DNA of 64,000 nucleotides. It comes from Peptococcaceae bacterium (GTDB lineage Bacteria > Bacillota > Desulfitobacteriia > Desulfitobacteriales > Syntrophobotulaceae). The notes below the pieces were generated by a model. It was given only the letters and a program-made list of their open reading frames with translations, searched no databases and was not told where the DNA came from. Positions 35,927 through 63,317 of this stretch are shown here, piece by piece (position 1 is the first letter of the stretch; every line of letters begins with the position of its first letter). Position numbers and translations under genes: made by a program. The stretch lies in assembly GCA_012517475.1 (NCBI GenBank), contig JAAYUV010000063.1, positions 1 through 64,000 of the forward strand. The letters run 5' to 3'.

Positions 35927-37060
35927 ATGCAGGAAAGCTATTACCAATGGGCTGTAAAGAAAGGAATAACACGCCGCGAATTTTTGCAATTCTGTACGGC
36001 GATGGCTGCTGTACTTGGTTTGGAAGCCAGCGCGGTTCCCAAAATCGTCAATGCTTTGGAAACAAAATCAAGATTGCCGGTTATCTATCTGAATTTGCAG
36101 GAATGTACCTGTTGCAGTGAGTCTTTCCTGAGGTCTGGTCATCCTCTCGCATCCAATTTAATTCTGAACCTAATTTCTCTGGATTATATGGAAGTTCTCC
36201 AGGCGGCCGCGGGGGAACAAGCTGAAGCAGCCAAGCAGAAAACAATGAAGGACTTTAAGAATAATTACCTTTTGGTCGTGGAAGGAAGCGCATCCCTTGG
36301 AGAAGAAGGAGTTTACTGTACGGTTGGCGGAAGGACTACCGTCAGTATTCTGGAAGAAGCGGCTGAAGGGGCAATAGCTGTAATCGCTTATGGAACCTGT
36401 GCCACAGATGGCTGTGTCCAGGGAGCCAATCCAAACCCGACCAAAGCGGTTCCAATTCATCAGGTTGTTAAAAATAAGCCGGTTATTAAAGTTCCCGGGT
36501 GCCCGCCAATAGCGGAAACGATCACAGGAACAATAGTGCATTATTTGACTTTCGGAACCCTTCCTGAACTCACTCCTGATGGAAGGCCCAAGGCGTTTTA
36601 TCAGCATAAAATTCATGAGAATTGCAACCGGAGAGCTTTCTTTGATATGGGATTGTTTGTGGAGGCTTTCGATGATCAAGGCGCGAAAGAAGGCTGGTGT
36701 CTCTTTAAAATGGGATGCAGAGGTCCGATGACCAACAATGCGTGTGCCCTTACAGGATGGAACGAAGGAACGAGTTATCCCATTAAATCGGGGCATCCCT
36801 GTCTGGGTTGTTCTGAAAACAAGTTTTTCGATAAGGGCTCATTCTATGCGCCATTAAGCGGAGATTTGCCGGGAGTCACCAAGGAAGGGGATAACAGTGG
36901 CTTGACGAAAGGTGTCATCGGGGTTGCAGCGGGTGCTGCTGTAGGTGCGGTCGGCGGTGCCGTAGCCAGTGCTTGGGTTCTGACAAACCGGAAAAGCAAA
37001 AAGCAGTATGTTGATGAGGAAAAATTCTACAAGGATAAAGGAATTCCAGAGGAAAAATAA
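35927..37060 (+). CDS. [NiFe] hydrogenase small subunit, Tat-exported (group 1)
   Basis: A 377-residue electron-transfer subunit. TRREFLQF near residue 15 is a Tat signal, folding the enzyme before export. Cluster ligands are seen in QECTCCSESF, GTCATDG and VPGCPP (proximal), HENCNRRAFF and CLFKMGCRG (distal), and HPCLGCSENKFF (medial). A C-terminal hydrophobic segment (about residues 325-350) anchors it in the membrane. It passes electrons from H2 toward the quinone pool. AAAGGAGG precedes ATG 35927. The cluster lacks a cytochrome b gene. Confidence 0.95.
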   Translation: MQESYYQWAVKKGITRREFLQFCTAMAAVLGLEASAVPKIVNALETKSRLPVIYLNLQECTCCSESFLRSGHPLASNLILNLISLDYMEVLQAAAGEQAEAAKQKTMKDFKNNYLLVVEGSASLGEEGVYCTVGGRTTVSILEEAAEGAIAVIAYGTCATDGCVQGANPNPTKAVPIHQVVKNKPVIKVPGCPPIAETITGTIVHYLTFGTLPELTPDGRPKAFYQHKIHENCNRRAFFDMGLFVEAFDDQGAKEGWCLFKMGCRGPMTNNACALTGWNEGTSYPIKSGHPCLGCSENKFFDKGSFYAPLSGDLPGVTKEGDNSGLTKGVIGVAAGAAVGAVGGAVASAWVLTNRKSKKQYVDEEKFYKDKGIPEEK

Positions 37061-37145
37061 AATTCTATCTCGCAGCTTGCTGTAACAAGATTTTAATTAG
37101 TGAAAGTAATCGTATTTCATTTCATTTGTGAAAGGAATGAAAAGA

Positions 37146-38864
37146 ATGGCTACAAAAAGAATTGTTATCGATCCGGTAACGCGTATAGAGGGACACCTCC
37201 GGGTGGAAGCAGTGGTGGATGGTAAAAAGATCACGGACGCCATCAGTTCCGGCACCATATTTCGTGGAATAGAAATCATTGTCAAAAACCGCGATCCCAG
37301 AGATGTTTGGGCTTTTGTGCAAAGGATCTGCGGAGTTTGTACCCATACTCATGCCCTGGCCTCAATCCGGTCGGTTGAAGATGCTTTAAAAATAAAAATT
37401 CCCAAGAATGCCAACATCATTCGCAATATTATGTCTGCTACGCAAGATGTTCAGGACCATGCCATCCATTTCTATCATTTGCATGGTTTTGATTGGATTG
37501 ATGTGGTAAGTGCCCTAAAAGCAGATCCTGCTCAGACCAGTTCTATAGCTCAATCCATTTCCGCCTGGCCCTTGTCCAGTACGAACTACTTCAAAGAAAT
37601 TCAGACCAAGGTAAAAAATCTTGTAGAAAGCGGTCAACTTGGAATTTTCGCCAATGCGTACTGGGGACACCCGGCTTACCGGCTTCCACCCGAAGTCAAC
37701 CTGCTGGGAGTGGCGCATTACATTGAAGCCTTAAACTGGCAGAAAGAAATTATTAAAATTCATGCGGTATTTGGCGGCAAAAACCCTCATCCTAACTATG
37801 CAGTAGGCGGAGTGCCGGCTTCTATTAACATCCAGGATAACAGTGTCATTAATATTGATCGTTTGAGTTTCGTGAAGTCCAAAATCGATGAAGCCAAGGT
37901 TTTTGTCGATCAGGTACTCATTCCGGACATTCTGGCGATTGCCGGCTTTTATAAAAATGATCTTTGGGGAGGCGGCTTAAGCAATTACATGTCTTATGGC
38001 GACCTGCCGAAGAATTCGATCAATGAACCGGAAAGCTTCATGGTTCCGCGCGGTATCGTCTTAAACAGGGATCTCACCAAGGTATACGACATCGATCTGA
38101 AAGATCCGAAACAAATTCAGGAATTTGTATCCCACTCCTGGTTCCGTTATGATGAGCCTAATACCGGACTTCATCCTTGGGACGGGAAAACGGAAGCACA
38201 TTACGACGGGCCGAAGCCCCCTTATACTAATCTGGATGAAAGCAAAGGGTACAGCTGGTCTAAGAGTCCCCGCTGGCAGGGCAAATCCATGGAGGTGGGC
38301 CCGCTAGCCAGGTTTGTTGTCGCTTATGCTAAGGGAGATCAGGAAATCAAGCAGCTGGTGGATAGCTCCCTGAAGAAATTAAACCTTCCTCTGGAAGCAC
38401 TTTTCTCCACTTTGGGGAGGACTTTAGCCAGGGCTCTTGAAACGCAGCATCGCGTTAATATTTTGGTAAAACTCTATGATGAACTGATTGCCAACATTAA
38501 ATCCGGAGATACCGCAACATTTAACGGTGAGAAATGGGATCCTAAAACCTGGCCGGCTGAAGCCCAGGGAGTAGGTTTCTGTGAAGCGCCGAGGGGAGCA
38601 CTTGGACACTGGATTAAGATTAAAAACGGGAAAGTCGATAATTATCAGGCTGTTGTGCCGACTACCTGGAACGCTTCTCCAAGAGATGCCGGTAAACAAT
38701 TAGGGGCCTATGAAGCTTCTATGATTGACACTCCTCTGGCCATTCCGGACCAGCCTCTGGAAATCCTGAGAACCATCCATTCCTTTGATCCTTGTGTGGC
38801 CTGTGCTACTCATTTGCTTGATCCGCAGGGACAGGAATTGCTTACAGTCATGACCAAAAAATAA
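37146..38864 (+). CDS. [NiFe] hydrogenase large subunit (group 1)
   Basis: The 572-residue catalytic subunit has the N-terminal nickel motif RICGVCTHTH and the C-terminal DPCVACATH. After that His a 15-residue tail is removed by the protease encoded next. VTRIEGHLRVE at the start is typical. It oxidises H2 on the outer face of the membrane together with the small subunit. ATG 37146 is chosen because AAAGGA is 9 nt upstream; earlier in-frame GTG and ATG codons overlap that site. Confidence 0.96.
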   Translation: MATKRIVIDPVTRIEGHLRVEAVVDGKKITDAISSGTIFRGIEIIVKNRDPRDVWAFVQRICGVCTHTHALASIRSVEDALKIKIPKNANIIRNIMSATQDVQDHAIHFYHLHGFDWIDVVSALKADPAQTSSIAQSISAWPLSSTNYFKEIQTKVKNLVESGQLGIFANAYWGHPAYRLPPEVNLLGVAHYIEALNWQKEIIKIHAVFGGKNPHPNYAVGGVPASINIQDNSVINIDRLSFVKSKIDEAKVFVDQVLIPDILAIAGFYKNDLWGGGLSNYMSYGDLPKNSINEPESFMVPRGIVLNRDLTKVYDIDLKDPKQIQEFVSHSWFRYDEPNTGLHPWDGKTEAHYDGPKPPYTNLDESKGYSWSKSPRWQGKSMEVGPLARFVVAYAKGDQEIKQLVDSSLKKLNLPLEALFSTLGRTLARALETQHRVNILVKLYDELIANIKSGDTATFNGEKWDPKTWPAEAQGVGFCEAPRGALGHWIKIKNGKVDNYQAVVPTTWNASPRDAGKQLGAYEASMIDTPLAIPDQPLEILRTIHSFDPCVACATHLLDPQGQELLTVMTKK

Positions 38865-38879
38865 TAAGGAGCATAACAC

Positions 38880-39365
38880 TTGTTTAAACTTCAAGAGATT
38901 AAGATTTTAGGAATTGGGAACCTGGTCAGACAGGATGAAGGTGTGGGTATTCATCTCTTGCAGTCTTTAGAAGGGATTCTGCCTGATGGGATCGAACTGC
39001 TTGACGGCGGAACCGGGGGGTTAGCTCTTCTGGATTTCGTGGAGAGTGCAGGGAAGCTGATCATTTTGGATGCTGTGGATGCCGCTAAGGAACCGGGGGA
39101 AGTTATAGTCTGGCGTCAGGAACAAGTTCCGTATTTTTTGGCAGCCAAAATGTCTGTTCACCAGGTGAGCTTTGCTGAGGTTTTGAACCTGGCAAAATTC
39201 CGGGGAAATTATCCGGAGGAGATCGCCGTAGTCGGGATCCAGCCCGAGACCCTGGACTGGGGAACGGAATTGAGTGAACCGGTAAAGAATTCTCTCCAAG
39301 CTGCGGTGAAAGCGGTTTTGGGTTTACTCGAAGAATGGGGGATATCAGTTCCTTTCCAAGAATAA
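38880..39365 (+). CDS. Hydrogenase maturation protease (HyaD/HupD type)
   Basis: A 161-residue endopeptidase that trims the large-subunit tail after nickel insertion. Metal-binding positions are present: Glu in RQDEGVG, Asp in ILDAVDA and His in SVHQVSF. The start is TTG with AAGGAG about 9 nt upstream. It is third in the hydrogenase operon, which ends at a terminator. The general hyp maturation genes are not in this window. Confidence 0.93.
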   Translation: MFKLQEIKILGIGNLVRQDEGVGIHLLQSLEGILPDGIELLDGGTGGLALLDFVESAGKLIILDAVDAAKEPGEVIVWRQEQVPYFLAAKMSVHQVSFAEVLNLAKFRGNYPEEIAVVGIQPETLDWGTELSEPVKNSLQAAVKAVLGLLEEWGISVPFQE

Positions 39366-57091: not shown

Positions 57092-57247
57092 GCTGTTTAT
57101 TTCCCAAATTAATGATTTGAAATATTGGCCATGGATATTTCATCAAGTTTAGACAAAAAATAAAGGGAAGATCTTTTGAAAACATTATTCATCCCATTAA
57201 TGGCAGGTTGCGGTAGAACCCCTCTACCTGATAAAGGAGAAGCGAAA

Positions 57248-58131
57248 ATGAATGTTGTAGAAATTAACCATCTAACTAAATATTATGGCAAGGAGCGCGG
57301 AATCATTGATATCAATTTTACTGTTGAGGAAAAAGAAATTTTCGGTTTTATCGGACCCAATGGGGCCGGCAAATCGACGACACTGCGAACGATGCTGGGT
57401 CTTATCTATCCTACCAGCGGAAACGCTAAGATTTTTGGGAAAGACAGCATCAAGGATGGGCCTGAAATAAAAAAGCTTATCGGCTATTTGCCTTCGGAAG
57501 TTTTTTATTATGAAAAAATGAGAGTCATCGATCTTCTGAATTATTCTGCCGGCTTTTATCAAATAGTTCCAAAAAGAGAATCAAAGAGTTAGCTGAAATT
57601 ATGGACCTGGATCTTCATAAAAGGATTGATGATTTGTCCTATGGCAATAAAAAGAAAGTTGGAATTGTCCAGGGCCTGCTCCATGAACCCAAACTGATTA
57701 TCCTTGATGAACCTACCAGCGGTTTAGACCCCCTGATGCAGCAGAAGTTCTTTGAACTCTTGCAGGAAGAGAATAAAAAAGGAGCAACCATCCTTTTTTC
57801 TTCCCATATTTTAGGTGAGGTTCAAAGGCTATGTGACAGGGTGGCTATTATAAAAGAAGGCAAAATTATTGAGCTGCAAAAAATCAGCGCTTTACAAGAG
57901 AATAATTATAAAAAAATCAAAGTTCAAGTTAATGGAGTCCCGAATCACGATTATTTTAATATAAACGGTGTAAGCAATTTGGAGGTTAAGCAAAATATCA
58001 TCAGTTTCATGTTCAGAGGAAACGTTAAGGTAATGTTAAAGAAGATTTCAGAAATTGACATAGCGAATGTTTGGATAGAGGAACCAGACCTGGAAGAAAT
58101 CTTTCTGCATTATTATGAAAAGGGAGCCTAG
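57248..58131 (+). pseudogene. ABC-2 type exporter ATPase, frameshifted at an A5 run
   Basis: ATG 57248, with AAAGGAGA upstream, opens a BcrA-like ATPase with Walker A GPNGAGKST. The frame reaches a stop near 57590 (ending PKRESKS). A second frame continues the protein without a gap in homology: KRIKELAEIMDLDLHKRIDD, signature region SYGNKKKVGIVQGL, Walker B LIILDEPTSGLDP and HILGEV, to 58131. A minus-one shift at CCAAAAAG (near 57563-57571) would restore about 294 residues. The two permeases downstream are intact. It may be a real mutation, a sequencing error or slippage. Confidence 0.78.
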
Positions 58132-59760: not shown

Positions 59761-60789
59761 ATGAAACAGTTTAGTAAAAAGTCCAGACCCCCGGTAATCT
59801 GGCTGGGAACCAACACCTGTGCCGGCGATATGCTTTCCCTCCTGAATTCCCTCGAACCAGGTTATCAAAGCTTAATTACCGATTTAATCGACTTTCGTTT
59901 TAATTACCTTCTTGGGTCAGCCGAAGGAGATACGGCAACCGGAGTCCTGAAAGCGGTGACCGAAGAGCAAAGAGGTAAATATATCCTGGTGATTGAAGGG
60001 ACTATCCCTACGCGAACGAATGGGCTTTACTGTGTTGTGGGAAATAGAGATGGAAAACCTTTAACGGCCTTACAGGCAGTTCGGGAACTGGGGGGAGGAG
60101 CCAGGCATGTAGTAGCGGCGGGCACCTGCGCTTCTTTTGGGGGGCCGTATGCAGCGGCTCCTAACCCTTCGGAATCAGTACCGGTGCAGGCGGTTCTTGA
60201 CAGAAAGGTCATTAATGTACCCGGCTGTCCAATCAACCCTGATTGGATGATGGGGACGCTGGTGCACCTTGTTCAGTATGGGGAACCTGAATTGGACGGG
60301 TTTAACCGTCCTAAGATTTTCTACGGCGATACCATTCACGACATCTGCCAGCGACGTGCCTATTTTGAAGACGGCATTTTTGCCGAAAAGCCGGGTGACC
60401 CTTGGTGCATGTATAAAATCGGCTGCAAAGGACCGGTAACCTATGCGGATTGTCCAAACCGCCAGTGGAGCGGTGAACACCTGAGCTGGCCTGTAAAAGC
60501 GAATACTCCCTGTATCGGCTGTACCAGCCCGGAATTTCCGGATGGCGATGCTCCTTTCTTTGAACACCTTCCCGATATCAATCTCCCGGGAATAAAAATA
60601 TCTGCAAATCGGTTCGCTCGGCTGGCAGGGGCTGCAACGGCCTTTGGTATCAGCATCCATCTGATCGGAAGTATATTGACCGGAAGGGTGGCTGACACGA
60701 TAAAAAAAGATTTCTCAGGCGGAATTTCACGGAAACTTCTTTCAATTATAAAAAACACCGACGGTAAGCGGTATGGAGGAAAAAATTAG
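59761..60789 (+). CDS. [NiFe] hydrogenase small subunit, CxxD variant without Tat signal
   Basis: A 342-residue small subunit that starts directly with the flavodoxin-like domain (PPVIWLGTNTCAGDMLSLL). The first proximal-cluster motif is Cys20-x-x-Asp23 instead of CxxC. Other ligands are normal: GTCASFGG, VPGCPINPDW, His in DTIHDICQRRAYF, CMYKIGCKG, and TPCIGCTSPEFPD. No Tat signal precedes it, so the enzyme should face the cytoplasm. A weak C-terminal hydrophobic helix (about 283-305) may anchor it. AAAGGA lies before ATG 59761. It is in an operon with the large subunit, cytochrome b and protease. Confidence 0.92.
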   Translation: MKQFSKKSRPPVIWLGTNTCAGDMLSLLNSLEPGYQSLITDLIDFRFNYLLGSAEGDTATGVLKAVTEEQRGKYILVIEGTIPTRTNGLYCVVGNRDGKPLTALQAVRELGGGARHVVAAGTCASFGGPYAAAPNPSESVPVQAVLDRKVINVPGCPINPDWMMGTLVHLVQYGEPELDGFNRPKIFYGDTIHDICQRRAYFEDGIFAEKPGDPWCMYKIGCKGPVTYADCPNRQWSGEHLSWPVKANTPCIGCTSPEFPDGDAPFFEHLPDINLPGIKISANRFARLAGAATAFGISIHLIGSILTGRVADTIKKDFSGGISRKLLSIIKNTDGKRYGGKN

Positions 60790-60842
60790 CCTGAATGTTT
60801 CTTTAATTAATTATAGTTATTATAGTGAGAGAAGGGATAAAA

Positions 60843-62252
60843 GTGTTGAAAAAGATTGTAGTAGGTCCCTTAACACGGGCCAACAACTCTTGTTTTGTAG
60901 AAGTGTTAGTTGAAAATAAAAAAGTTGTGGATGCCAGGTGCAGCGGAATATTTTTCAGGGGATTTGAGCTGATTATGGAAGGCAGAGATCCCCGGGATGC
61001 CAGCTATCTGACTCAACGAATTTGCGGTATTTGCTCTTCAGCCCACGGTATCACGGCGTCTCTTGCCCTGGAAAACGCTGCAGGGGTAAGGCCTCCTAAA
61101 AATGGCAATATACTGCGAAATCTCATTTTTGGAGCCGATTTCCTGCAAAATCATATCCGTCACTTATATCTCTTCTCACTTTCCGATTATATTACAGGTC
61201 CTGAGGTTGCCCCATTTATTCCGGGATATTCGACAGATAAACGCCTGAAAGAAGAAACCAACAACTCTATGATCCAGCATATATTTGAGTCCATTGAAAT
61301 CAGCCGCTTGGCTCACGATCTGGTTACTCTTTTGGGAGGGAAGGCTCCTTTCCCGCATGGGATTCTCTCCGGCGGCAGCACCGTTTTCCCTACTGCAGAT
61401 GTGATGATGGCTTTCAAGTCAAAACTAAGGAGGGTTAATGATTTTATCAAAAACGCAATGCTTTCGGATGTGTTCACGCTGGCCGAGGTTTACTCGGATT
61501 ACTACCAGATAGGTTGCAGAGCCCCGAATATGCTGGAGTACGGTATCTTTCCCCGAAATGAGGAAGAAGGGGACAGGTATTTCCCGGGTGGGGCGGTAAT
61601 TAATGGTATGCTCCAAAAAGTTGACCCCTCGGTGATTCAGGAACATGTAAGCAAATCCTGGTATTCGGCGGATTCTGAATCCCGGCATCCCTTTCAGGGG
61701 AAGACCGTCCCGGATCGGGAAAAAGAGGGGGCTTATTCCTGGGTGAAAGCCCCCCGCTATATGGAAACACCGATGGAAGGGGGGCCGCTTGCCCAGCTCT
61801 GGATCAAGGGAGATTACCGAAAGGGAATATCTACTATGGACCGGATTGTTGCTCGTGCTCTGGTGGCAGAGAAAATTGGGGCTTTAATGGAAAGCTGGGT
61901 GGATGAACTTGAGCCGGGCCAACCTATTTTCACTCCTTTTGAAGTGCCCCGGGAAGCGTCGGGGATCGGCCTGACCGGTGCGATGCGCGGACCTCTGGGG
62001 CACTGGATATATATTAAAAATGGACGTATCGTTCATTACCAAATTATCACTCCCACAGCGTGGAATTTTTCGCCTCGGGATGATTCGGACAGGAAGGGAC
62101 CCGTAGAAGAAGCCTTGATTGGTACACCGATTGCCGACGAGAGCCAGCCAATAGAAATTGGCAGGGTAGTCCGGGCTTTTTACGTTTGCTCTTCCTGTTC
62201 TGCCCAGGTGATGATCCCGGGATCACCAGTCAGGGAGATTATTTTGCAATGA
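60843..62252 (+). CDS. [NiFe] hydrogenase large subunit, divergent C-terminal motif
   Basis: A 469-residue large subunit, much shorter than that of cluster 1. The N-terminal nickel motif is normal (RICGICSSAH, Cys61 and Cys64). The C-terminal motif reads YVCSSCSAQ (Cys449, Cys452): both nickel Cys are kept, but the usual Asp-Pro before them and the His at the cleavage site are replaced by Tyr-Val and Gln455. A 14-residue tail follows. GTG 60843 is chosen because AGAAGGGA is 6 nt upstream. Its stop overlaps the cytochrome b start (ATGA). Confidence 0.92.
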   Translation: MLKKIVVGPLTRANNSCFVEVLVENKKVVDARCSGIFFRGFELIMEGRDPRDASYLTQRICGICSSAHGITASLALENAAGVRPPKNGNILRNLIFGADFLQNHIRHLYLFSLSDYITGPEVAPFIPGYSTDKRLKEETNNSMIQHIFESIEISRLAHDLVTLLGGKAPFPHGILSGGSTVFPTADVMMAFKSKLRRVNDFIKNAMLSDVFTLAEVYSDYYQIGCRAPNMLEYGIFPRNEEEGDRYFPGGAVINGMLQKVDPSVIQEHVSKSWYSADSESRHPFQGKTVPDREKEGAYSWVKAPRYMETPMEGGPLAQLWIKGDYRKGISTMDRIVARALVAEKIGALMESWVDELEPGQPIFTPFEVPREASGIGLTGAMRGPLGHWIYIKNGRIVHYQIITPTAWNFSPRDDSDRKGPVEEALIGTPIADESQPIEIGRVVRAFYVCSSCSAQVMIPGSPVREIILQ

Positions 62253-62854
62253 AATTAAGACAAAGAGTTTCGTTATTAATCAGAGGAAAAAAGCCCCGCC
62301 ATTCCGGAACCGCCAGGCTGCTCCACTGGCTCTACGCTCCTGCGGTATTAGGTTCCGCCCTTAGTGGCTTTTATATTCACTGGCCCGGTAGTTCTTTGGG
62401 TTTTCGGAAGATGAACACTGCCCGGGAAACTCACTTTTTTGCCCAATTTACTCTGCTTTTTACCTATATTGCCAGGGTCATGTATGGGTTAAAAGGCAAA
62501 AATTACAGAGAAATTCTTCCCAATCGCAAAACCCTGTCAGATATGGCAAAGTTTTTAAAGTACGAATTCTATCTCACCGATAAGGAGCCGAAATTTCCAA
62601 AGTATAACCCCGGACAAAAAGTACTTTTTACAGGAATGGTCCTGTTCGTTCTAATCCAAATTATTACCGGATTGTCACTTTACTTCCCGAAATCATGGCA
62701 GAAGACGGCGAAGCTGGTTGGGGGGTTAAATCCTTTGCGAAAATTGCATTTTTTATCGGCCTTAACCATTTCAATCCTGGTCACCGGGCATCTCTATTTT
62801 GTTTTTACACATGAATATAAAAAGATGAAGTCGATTTTTACCGGCTATGAATAA
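62249..62854 (+). CDS. Hydrogenase cytochrome b subunit (HyaC-like)
   Basis: A 201-residue di-haem cytochrome b with four helices. Probable haem ligands are His in ARLLHWLY, ARETHFFAQF, LRKLHFLSA and VTGHLYFVF. It links the hydrogenase to menaquinone. ATG 62249 overlaps the large-subunit stop and has AGGGAGA upstream. It is the only hydrogenase cytochrome b in the window, while the other cluster has none. Confidence 0.9.
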   Translation: MKLRQRVSLLIRGKKPRHSGTARLLHWLYAPAVLGSALSGFYIHWPGSSLGFRKMNTARETHFFAQFTLLFTYIARVMYGLKGKNYREILPNRKTLSDMAKFLKYEFYLTDKEPKFPKYNPGQKVLFTGMVLFVLIQIITGLSLYFPKSWQKTAKLVGGLNPLRKLHFLSALTISILVTGHLYFVFTHEYKKMKSIFTGYE

Positions 62855-63317
62855 ACAAATTACTATTCTTGGTCTGGGCAACCCCCTGCTTAAAGATGAC
62901 GGTATCGGTCTCCGCGTAATCGAAGAACTGCACAAGGCAGGCCTTCCTAACGGCATTCATGCCGCTGCTGCGGGGGGATCTTTTTATCATTTATGGGATA
63001 TAATGTCCGAAAGCAAACAGGTTATCGTCGTAGATGCTCTTCAGGCGGGCGGTCTCCCCGGAACAGTTTATTTGCTGAGGCCGGATGAAATTGTTTGGGA
63101 GGAAGAATCCGCAATATTTCGGCACGAGGACGATTTTTTTGGTGTGCTGGATTTTATGTCGTATTACGGCATCAGGCCTGAGGTAATCATTGTGGGAATA
63201 GAGCCGAAAGAAATAACTTATTCCCTGGATCTTTCTCCGGAAATTGAAATGATAATGCCAATGATCATCAACATTGTCCGAAAACTTATCCTTTCGTTTT
63301 CAGTTTCATTTAAATAA
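62847..63317 (+). CDS. Hydrogenase maturation protease (HyaD/HycI type)
   Basis: A 156-residue endopeptidase starting ITILGLGNPLLKDDGIGLR. The first metal position is Asp in place of Glu (DDGIG, as in HycI), the second is Asp in VVDALQ and the third His in FRHEDDFF. It should remove the tail of the adjacent large subunit, whose cleavage site is atypical. It overlaps the cytochrome gene by 8 bp. It is last in the cluster 2 operon. Confidence 0.9.
   Translation: MNKQITILGLGNPLLKDDGIGLRVIEELHKAGLPNGIHAAAAGGSFYHLWDIMSESKQVIVVDALQAGGLPGTVYLLRPDEIVWEEESAIFRHEDDFFGVLDFMSYYGIRPEVIIVGIEPKEITYSLDLSPEIEMIMPMIINIVRKLILSFSVSFK

Follow-up and report, generated by a model that had tools for sequence, protein, structure and literature searches.

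The closest described relatives of the enzyme considered here are the NiFeSe hydrogenases (HysAB) of Desulfovibrio and Desulfomicrobium. Their proximal iron-sulfur site is built by four Cys, and their large subunit, HysA, combines a selenocysteine (Sec) with the Glu of the RxEGH motif. This proton-gate Glu corresponds to E28 and E14 of the E. coli enzymes Hyd-1 and Hyd-2; its carboxylate lies less than 4 Å from a Ni-bound Cys and is held to relay the proton, according to PMC10430524 and PMC13111528, the latter citing Dementin 2004. In these sources, the roles of this Glu and of the canopy Arg as proton handler in [NiFe] catalysis are argued from point mutants. We describe here an operon of the Peptococcaceae bacterium contig JAAYUV010000063.1 (assembly GCA_012517475.1), located at 59761–63317 on the forward strand of a 64,000-nucleotide stretch (contig positions 1 to 64,000; the window). 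It encodes the small subunit (SSU) and the large subunit (LSU) of a [NiFe] hydrogenase, a cytochrome b and a maturation protease, tightly packed and with overlaps among the last three genes. The operon probably specifies a functional, membrane-anchored hydrogenase of the H2:quinone type, from a distinct Firmicutes clade in which the proximal-cluster and proton-exit region appears to have been rebuilt. The LSU is compact (~470 amino acids, aa), like that of the NiFeSe enzymes, and its best match is D. vulgaris HysA (~380 bits, 38% identity). A NiFeSe hydrogenase is also the closest PDB fold (template modelling score, TM, 0.91) to its AlphaFold2 model (predicted local distance difference test, pLDDT, 84). 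However, the LSU has Cys where HysA has Sec and Asn where HysA has Glu, and the SSU has CxxD.

The proton-gate Glu is missing from the LSU (60843–62252; PF00374, 2.6e-106; alternative GTG start at 60825), a trait overlooked in an earlier reading of this DNA from its letters (the sequence-only reading). The RxEGH site reads R12-A-N14-N-S (60876–60890), and Asn14 aligns without gaps to the Glu of HysA in the PDB alignment. Motifs were tabulated for 167 LSUs and their partner SSUs. The Glu is absent from all 72 clade LSUs, which have mostly Ser (36%), Asn (32%) or His (24%) and no acidic substitute at the position itself, while it is present in 48 of 48 canonical LSUs. Laboratory counterparts of this natural loss are the E. 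coli variants E28Q and E28D of Hyd-1 and E14Q of Hyd-2 (5lmm, 5lry, 6gam), but these have all-Cys proximal sites. Searches limited to openly accessible papers found neither a natural loss of the Glu nor CxxN/D in this group.

By alignment, the four Cys ligands of the active site are retained: Cys61 and Cys64 in RICGICSSAH (61017–61046, Arg59 to His68), and Cys449 and Cys452 in RAFYVCSSCSAQ (62172–62207). Asp115, His68 and the canopy Arg382 are retained as well, and every residue that is invariant over 12 aligned relatives is found in the window LSU. The canopy Arg, equivalent to R509/R479, follows Met381 instead of the usual Pro (61983–61988). The codon of Cys449 is TGC, so that the Sec of a DPUxxC motif is absent. 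Six residues are newly conserved in the clade LSUs (Arg106, Asn103, Ser65, Thr403, His172 and Asp333). Of the features typical of the [NiFe] superfamily, the four Cys, the canopy Arg, the maturation protease and the C-terminal extension of the LSU are present; the RxEGH Glu, which is usual and not strictly defining, is lacking.

The SSU (59761–60789; TIGR00391, 1.8e-76; PF14720; PF01058) is altered around its clusters. A CxxD proximal motif had been noticed by the sequence-only reading and is read directly from the codons TGT GCC GGC GAT at 59818–59829, which give C20-A-G-D23 with Asp23 in place of Cys. From this motif, Asp23 is predicted to be an actual ligand of a Cys3-Asp proximal cluster. 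The fourth proximal position of 67 readable clade SSUs is occupied by Asp (37), Asn (29) or Glu (1), compared with Cys in 41 of 41 canonical SSUs. At the medial cluster position, Pro244 (60490–60492) represents a residue found in 93% of the clade, where 84% of the canonical set has Cys. At the distal cluster, all ligands (His193 with three Cys) are retained. The unusual features of both subunits are not due to chance, since dozens of homologues share them. The absence of a twin-arginine translocation (Tat) signal, also claimed earlier, held when the upstream region was searched: no twin-arginine motif occurs in the whole stop-free frame upstream of the SSU. Its C-terminus carries a transmembrane-like anchor helix (mean hydropathy 1.72). 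Compared with group 1 (1a/1b), the enzyme thus lacks the Tat signal and the proximal CxxC and has the cytochrome b partner and the SSU anchor.

Group 1h hydrogenases have a Cys3-Asp proximal cluster. The motif is alike, but their sequences are distant from that of the window. A kinship with this group (actinobacterial-type, HofGK, 5AA5), to which the sequence-only reading had likened the motif, is rejected on the weakness of the matches (118 bits for the SSU, 142 bits for the LSU); 5AA5 is the weakest group-1/2 match of the LSU, against ~380 bits for HysA, and CxxD/N appears to have arisen in a separate Firmicutes clade. The group 2a enzyme Huc is without a Tat signal too. It is a quinone reducer with unusual clusters, as the present enzyme would be, but it (7UTD) gives only a 183-bit match to the window LSU. 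Huc contains [3Fe-4S] clusters and replaces the membrane subunit with a quinone scaffold of its own (PMC10017518).

A genome scan yielded 55 loci, the nearest being 65–70% identical. Of 25 genomes of the family, 8 proved in whole-genome searches to encode full-length members of the clade. At the class level, a match at E < 1e-100 is present in 51 of 83 genomes, and at the phylum level a match at E < 1e-90 in 106 of 398, some of which have canonical enzymes only. The LSUs were placed in a quick tree of 133 rows, from which the trait columns had been removed. The Glu-less rows with intact ligands form a single group of 72 (SH-like approximate likelihood ratio test, SH-aLRT, 98), with the exception of one odd sequence, L194. 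The sister group of these 72 rows consists of three rows (L153, L156 and L157; SH-aLRT 99 for the joint group of 75), which keep the Glu, have CxxN in the SSU, and carry RICGFCP and DPCN[AD]CAVQ in the LSU, with a natural Gln at the cleavage position. In a more careful tree (73 rows, L194 omitted), for which the RxCGxC and C-terminal columns were dropped as well, the Glu state changes once; the Glu-less group is supported at 86/89 and the joint group at 100/100. Since the sister lineage has CxxN and yet retains the Glu, the Asp or Asn (Asx) proximal ligand probably preceded the loss of the Glu, and this lineage is likely an evolutionary intermediate. As judged from these sequences, the Glu-less, Asx-proximal hydrogenases form one Firmicutes clade, widespread in the phylum and separate from group 1h, of which the trees contained no row. 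The clade is a large, little-studied hydrogenase branch of spore-forming bacteria. This naturally Glu-less clade would be a variant of the known [NiFe] hydrogenases in which the surroundings of the proximal cluster and of the proton exit have been rebuilt.

Some unusual LSU homologues were seen as well. The odd row L194 has RVPGQ, APQG at the canopy Arg site, DLCLACAAH ending at His, and a CxxC small subunit. Intact homologues of ~450 aa that lack all four Cys ligands are encoded in G310, G209, G286 and G262 (L198, L199, L200 and L201), and probably also in G092, G176, G333 and G356. The four loci have RTSGLDF, RTNGLDF, RTNGTDF and RCSGIDF, end in ..RSF and have lost the canopy Arg (ASQG, ASHG, SSGG); each adjoins a Tat-bearing CxGC small subunit, and they look like a cofactor-less, NuoD-like paralogue. 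In several Glu-keeping Firmicutes hydrogenases (L162, L169, L009, L176, L178, L180, L182 and L028), an in-frame TGA at the second Cys of RxCGxC (RICGVU) suggests Sec at an N-terminal ligand, and the tested genomes have selB.

The branches of the clade differ in export and anchoring. Tat signals of the RIHNP and RINGFW types are found in some branches and are absent from others; those of the RIHNP type occur in genomes of the window's order, probably Desulfosporosinus/Desulfitobacterium. The ISGF and SGLL branches have no Tat signal, no anchor helix and no cytochrome b. A cytochrome-b5-like protein (PF00173) is encoded near the soluble, Tat-less SSU in 15 ISGF/SGLL windows, L217 and L247 among them. 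The window's own branch is Tat-less and has both the anchor helix and the cytochrome b. In the window, the latter (62249–62854; PF01292, 5.4e-30; TIGR02125) has four helices, with His26, His62, His167 and His181 as candidate heme ligands, and it is followed by a protease of the HycI/HybD type (62847–63317; PF01750; TIGR00072, 5.1e-30). These family matches confirm both genes as read earlier. The earlier view of a distinct, membrane-anchored [NiFe] hydrogenase with a cytochrome b was right as well. HypD and the Tat translocase are encoded in the same genome.

Tat-less clostridial enzymes filed under HydDB group 1a, namely mbhSL of C. acetobutylicum and X276_11305 of C. beijerinckii, have the same motif style (RICGICSTAH / DPCxSCATH; PMC9431212), some with a cytochrome b5 gene beside them. 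From their motifs, they very probably represent the ISGF branch. This branch is soluble and has a cytochrome-b5-like partner, whereas the window's branch has the anchor helix and cytochrome b. The accessible portions of the accounts of the clostridial 1a enzymes mention neither the loss of the Glu nor CxxN/D. The 1a label is attached there to these relatives (PMC9431212), and, in PMC12542780, to a Hup-type enzyme of Dehalobacter.

The C-terminal processing site of the LSU can be compared with that of its near relatives. The terminus YVCSSCSAQ, as noted earlier, is indeed present, but it is mostly a peculiarity of one genome and not a trait of the group: near relatives (L005, L006, L065–L070) have D[VI]CSSCS[ATV]H, and only the change of Pro to Val or Ile is common to the near clade. 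Tyr447 and Gln455 are found in the window LSU alone among near relatives, each one base away from the usual residue. The extension comprises 14 residues past Gln455. In L115 and L119, from the same branch, the LSU ends directly after the His. Cofactor insertion is likely, given that the extension is kept in most clade members and that many of them encode a protease. The protease does contain Asp at its first metal site (KDDGIG), which had been taken for an anomaly and is ordinary for the protease family; HycI also uses Asp at this position.

Several observations weigh against a functional H2:quinone enzyme at the cytoplasmic face. Among the literature covered, no activity was found reported for a clade member, and replacing the Glu in enzymes that have been studied impairs or abolishes their activity; the clade enzymes could therefore work very slowly or serve a purpose other than H2 turnover. 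The split between the Glu-less clade and its sister lineage is only moderately supported (86/89), and a quick version of the careful tree leaves it unresolved. In the window copy, Tyr447 occupies the place of the canopy Asp and Gln455 that of the metal-ligand His at the C-terminus, and this copy may therefore be drifting; the two residues could impair it, or they could reflect an altered protease specificity. That the gene is decaying, with processing or activity lost, would agree with two private substitutions of one base each. It is nevertheless improbable, as none of the four tightly packed genes is disrupted, the residues invariant in the 12 relatives are all kept, and Gln is also found at the cleavage position of the intact sister lineage. 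The location of the dimer is a further point. Because the Tat signal is absent, the cytoplasmic face is most simply its place, as the ‘inward-facing’ label of the sequence-only reading implied, but the charge pattern is equivocal. The SSU anchor tail is positive (+6 in the window, +8.7 on average in the branch), as in Tat-exported clade members (+10.1 and +8.4), while canonical tails are neutral. The N-terminus and loop 2-3 of the cytochrome b are positive as well, as in exported relatives. Loops 1-2 and 3-4 of the Tat-less branch contain 4.4 Lys plus Arg each, compared with 1.5–1.8 and 1.7–2.8 in the others, and loop 2-3 is still the most positive. These charges, and the Tat signals of neighbouring lineages in the tree, would suit a dimer exported in trans or independently of Tat, and thus an ordinary outward-facing uptake hydrogenase. 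Such export seems unlikely, since no readable SSU of the branch has an RR motif, the operons have no conserved Tat-bearing partner, and two other Tat-less branches lost the anchor entirely, like soluble cytoplasmic proteins.

The enzyme may also run in reverse, with the diheme cytochrome b oxidizing menaquinol and electrons crossing the membrane to an inside hydrogenase, so that proton motive force is spent and H2 released. The Tat-less state of the branch with its retained anchor and cytochrome b histidines fits this idea, as do relatives that are syntroph-like and probably organohalide-respiring. We regard it as a rather slim prospect: the direction is not readable from sequence, and loss of the Glu is expected to slow the proton supply for H2 evolution. 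A somewhat less remote alternative, though an unlikely one, sees in the Glu-less clade a sensor or low-turnover enzyme of sporulation or germination, and not a main respiratory enzyme. GerA-type germinant receptor operons (PF03323, PF03845, PF05504) lie within ~9 kb, in varied order and orientation, in nine clade windows (L222, L225, L226, L251, L264, L265, L266, L001 and L002), whereas 21 canonical control windows contain none. By lineage, ger neighbours are found in 5 of 33, against 0.85 expected (P ~0.001), or in 3 of 31 (P ~0.045) when the two discovery lineages are excluded. The sole gerA of genome G372 is the neighbour of the hydrogenase, and GerA is present in each of the 58 clade genomes tested, compared with 343 of 398 phylum genomes. 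Expression that culminates in stationary phase or continues through it is described for clostridial enzymes with this motif style, whose clade membership we infer from motifs and the missing Tat signal: for mbhSL in PMC2530871, and for the C. beijerinckii [NiFe] cluster (RICGICSTAH/DPCxSCATH) in PMC6362236. The pSOL1 plasmid of C. acetobutylicum, sought as a tie between the clade and published expression data, was not among the plasmid matches listed. The spore link through ger neighbours is a weak one, however. The association was spotted post hoc, most clade loci, including that of the window, have no ger neighbour, and when the DNA ahead of the SSU gene was searched for sporulation promoters (sigma G, E and K) and for those of sigma A/54, no group gave a signal above shuffled sequences.

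Other genes were noted around these loci. Several near relatives (L005, L214 and, from its upstream DNA, L001) have a DUF3243 gene (PF11588) directly upstream of the operon. The window has a second [NiFe] hydrogenase at 35927–39365, a canonical, Tat-bearing group 1 enzyme with its own protease. An ABC transporter ATPase at 57176–58131 is split into two open reading frames in different frames, perhaps by a frameshift or an assembly error.

In the mechanism proposed for the functional, membrane-anchored enzyme, H2 would be split at the NiFe site, and electrons would pass from the Cys3-Asp proximal cluster to a medial cluster of the [3Fe-4S] type, on to a distal one of the [4Fe-4S] type, and then to cytochrome b and menaquinone. 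The proton would exit by a route independent of the Glu. The Asx proximal ligand would have come first, followed by a single loss of the Glu; the dimer, without a Tat signal, would be placed at the cytoplasmic face, and a role in stationary phase or in spores is possible. A bolder and quite tentative proposal is that a widespread natural class of [NiFe] hydrogenases can dispense with the Glu because the change from proximal Cys to Asp or Asn opened another way out for the proton, possibly by coupling its transfer to that of the electron at the cluster itself, and that the Tat-less branches may serve the cytoplasm of spore formers in stationary phase or germination.

Organohalide respirers and clostridia are probably among the hosts of this clade. 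The clostridial members have been assigned to the periplasmic uptake enzymes of group 1a, probably mistakenly as regards the Tat-less branches. Nature already holds the mutants that enzymologists debate, with the Glu lost and Asp or Asn in place of a proximal Cys. The naturally Glu-less clade and its Glu-keeping CxxN sister thus offer existing enzymes with which to examine the need for either residue and the role of the proximal ligand.

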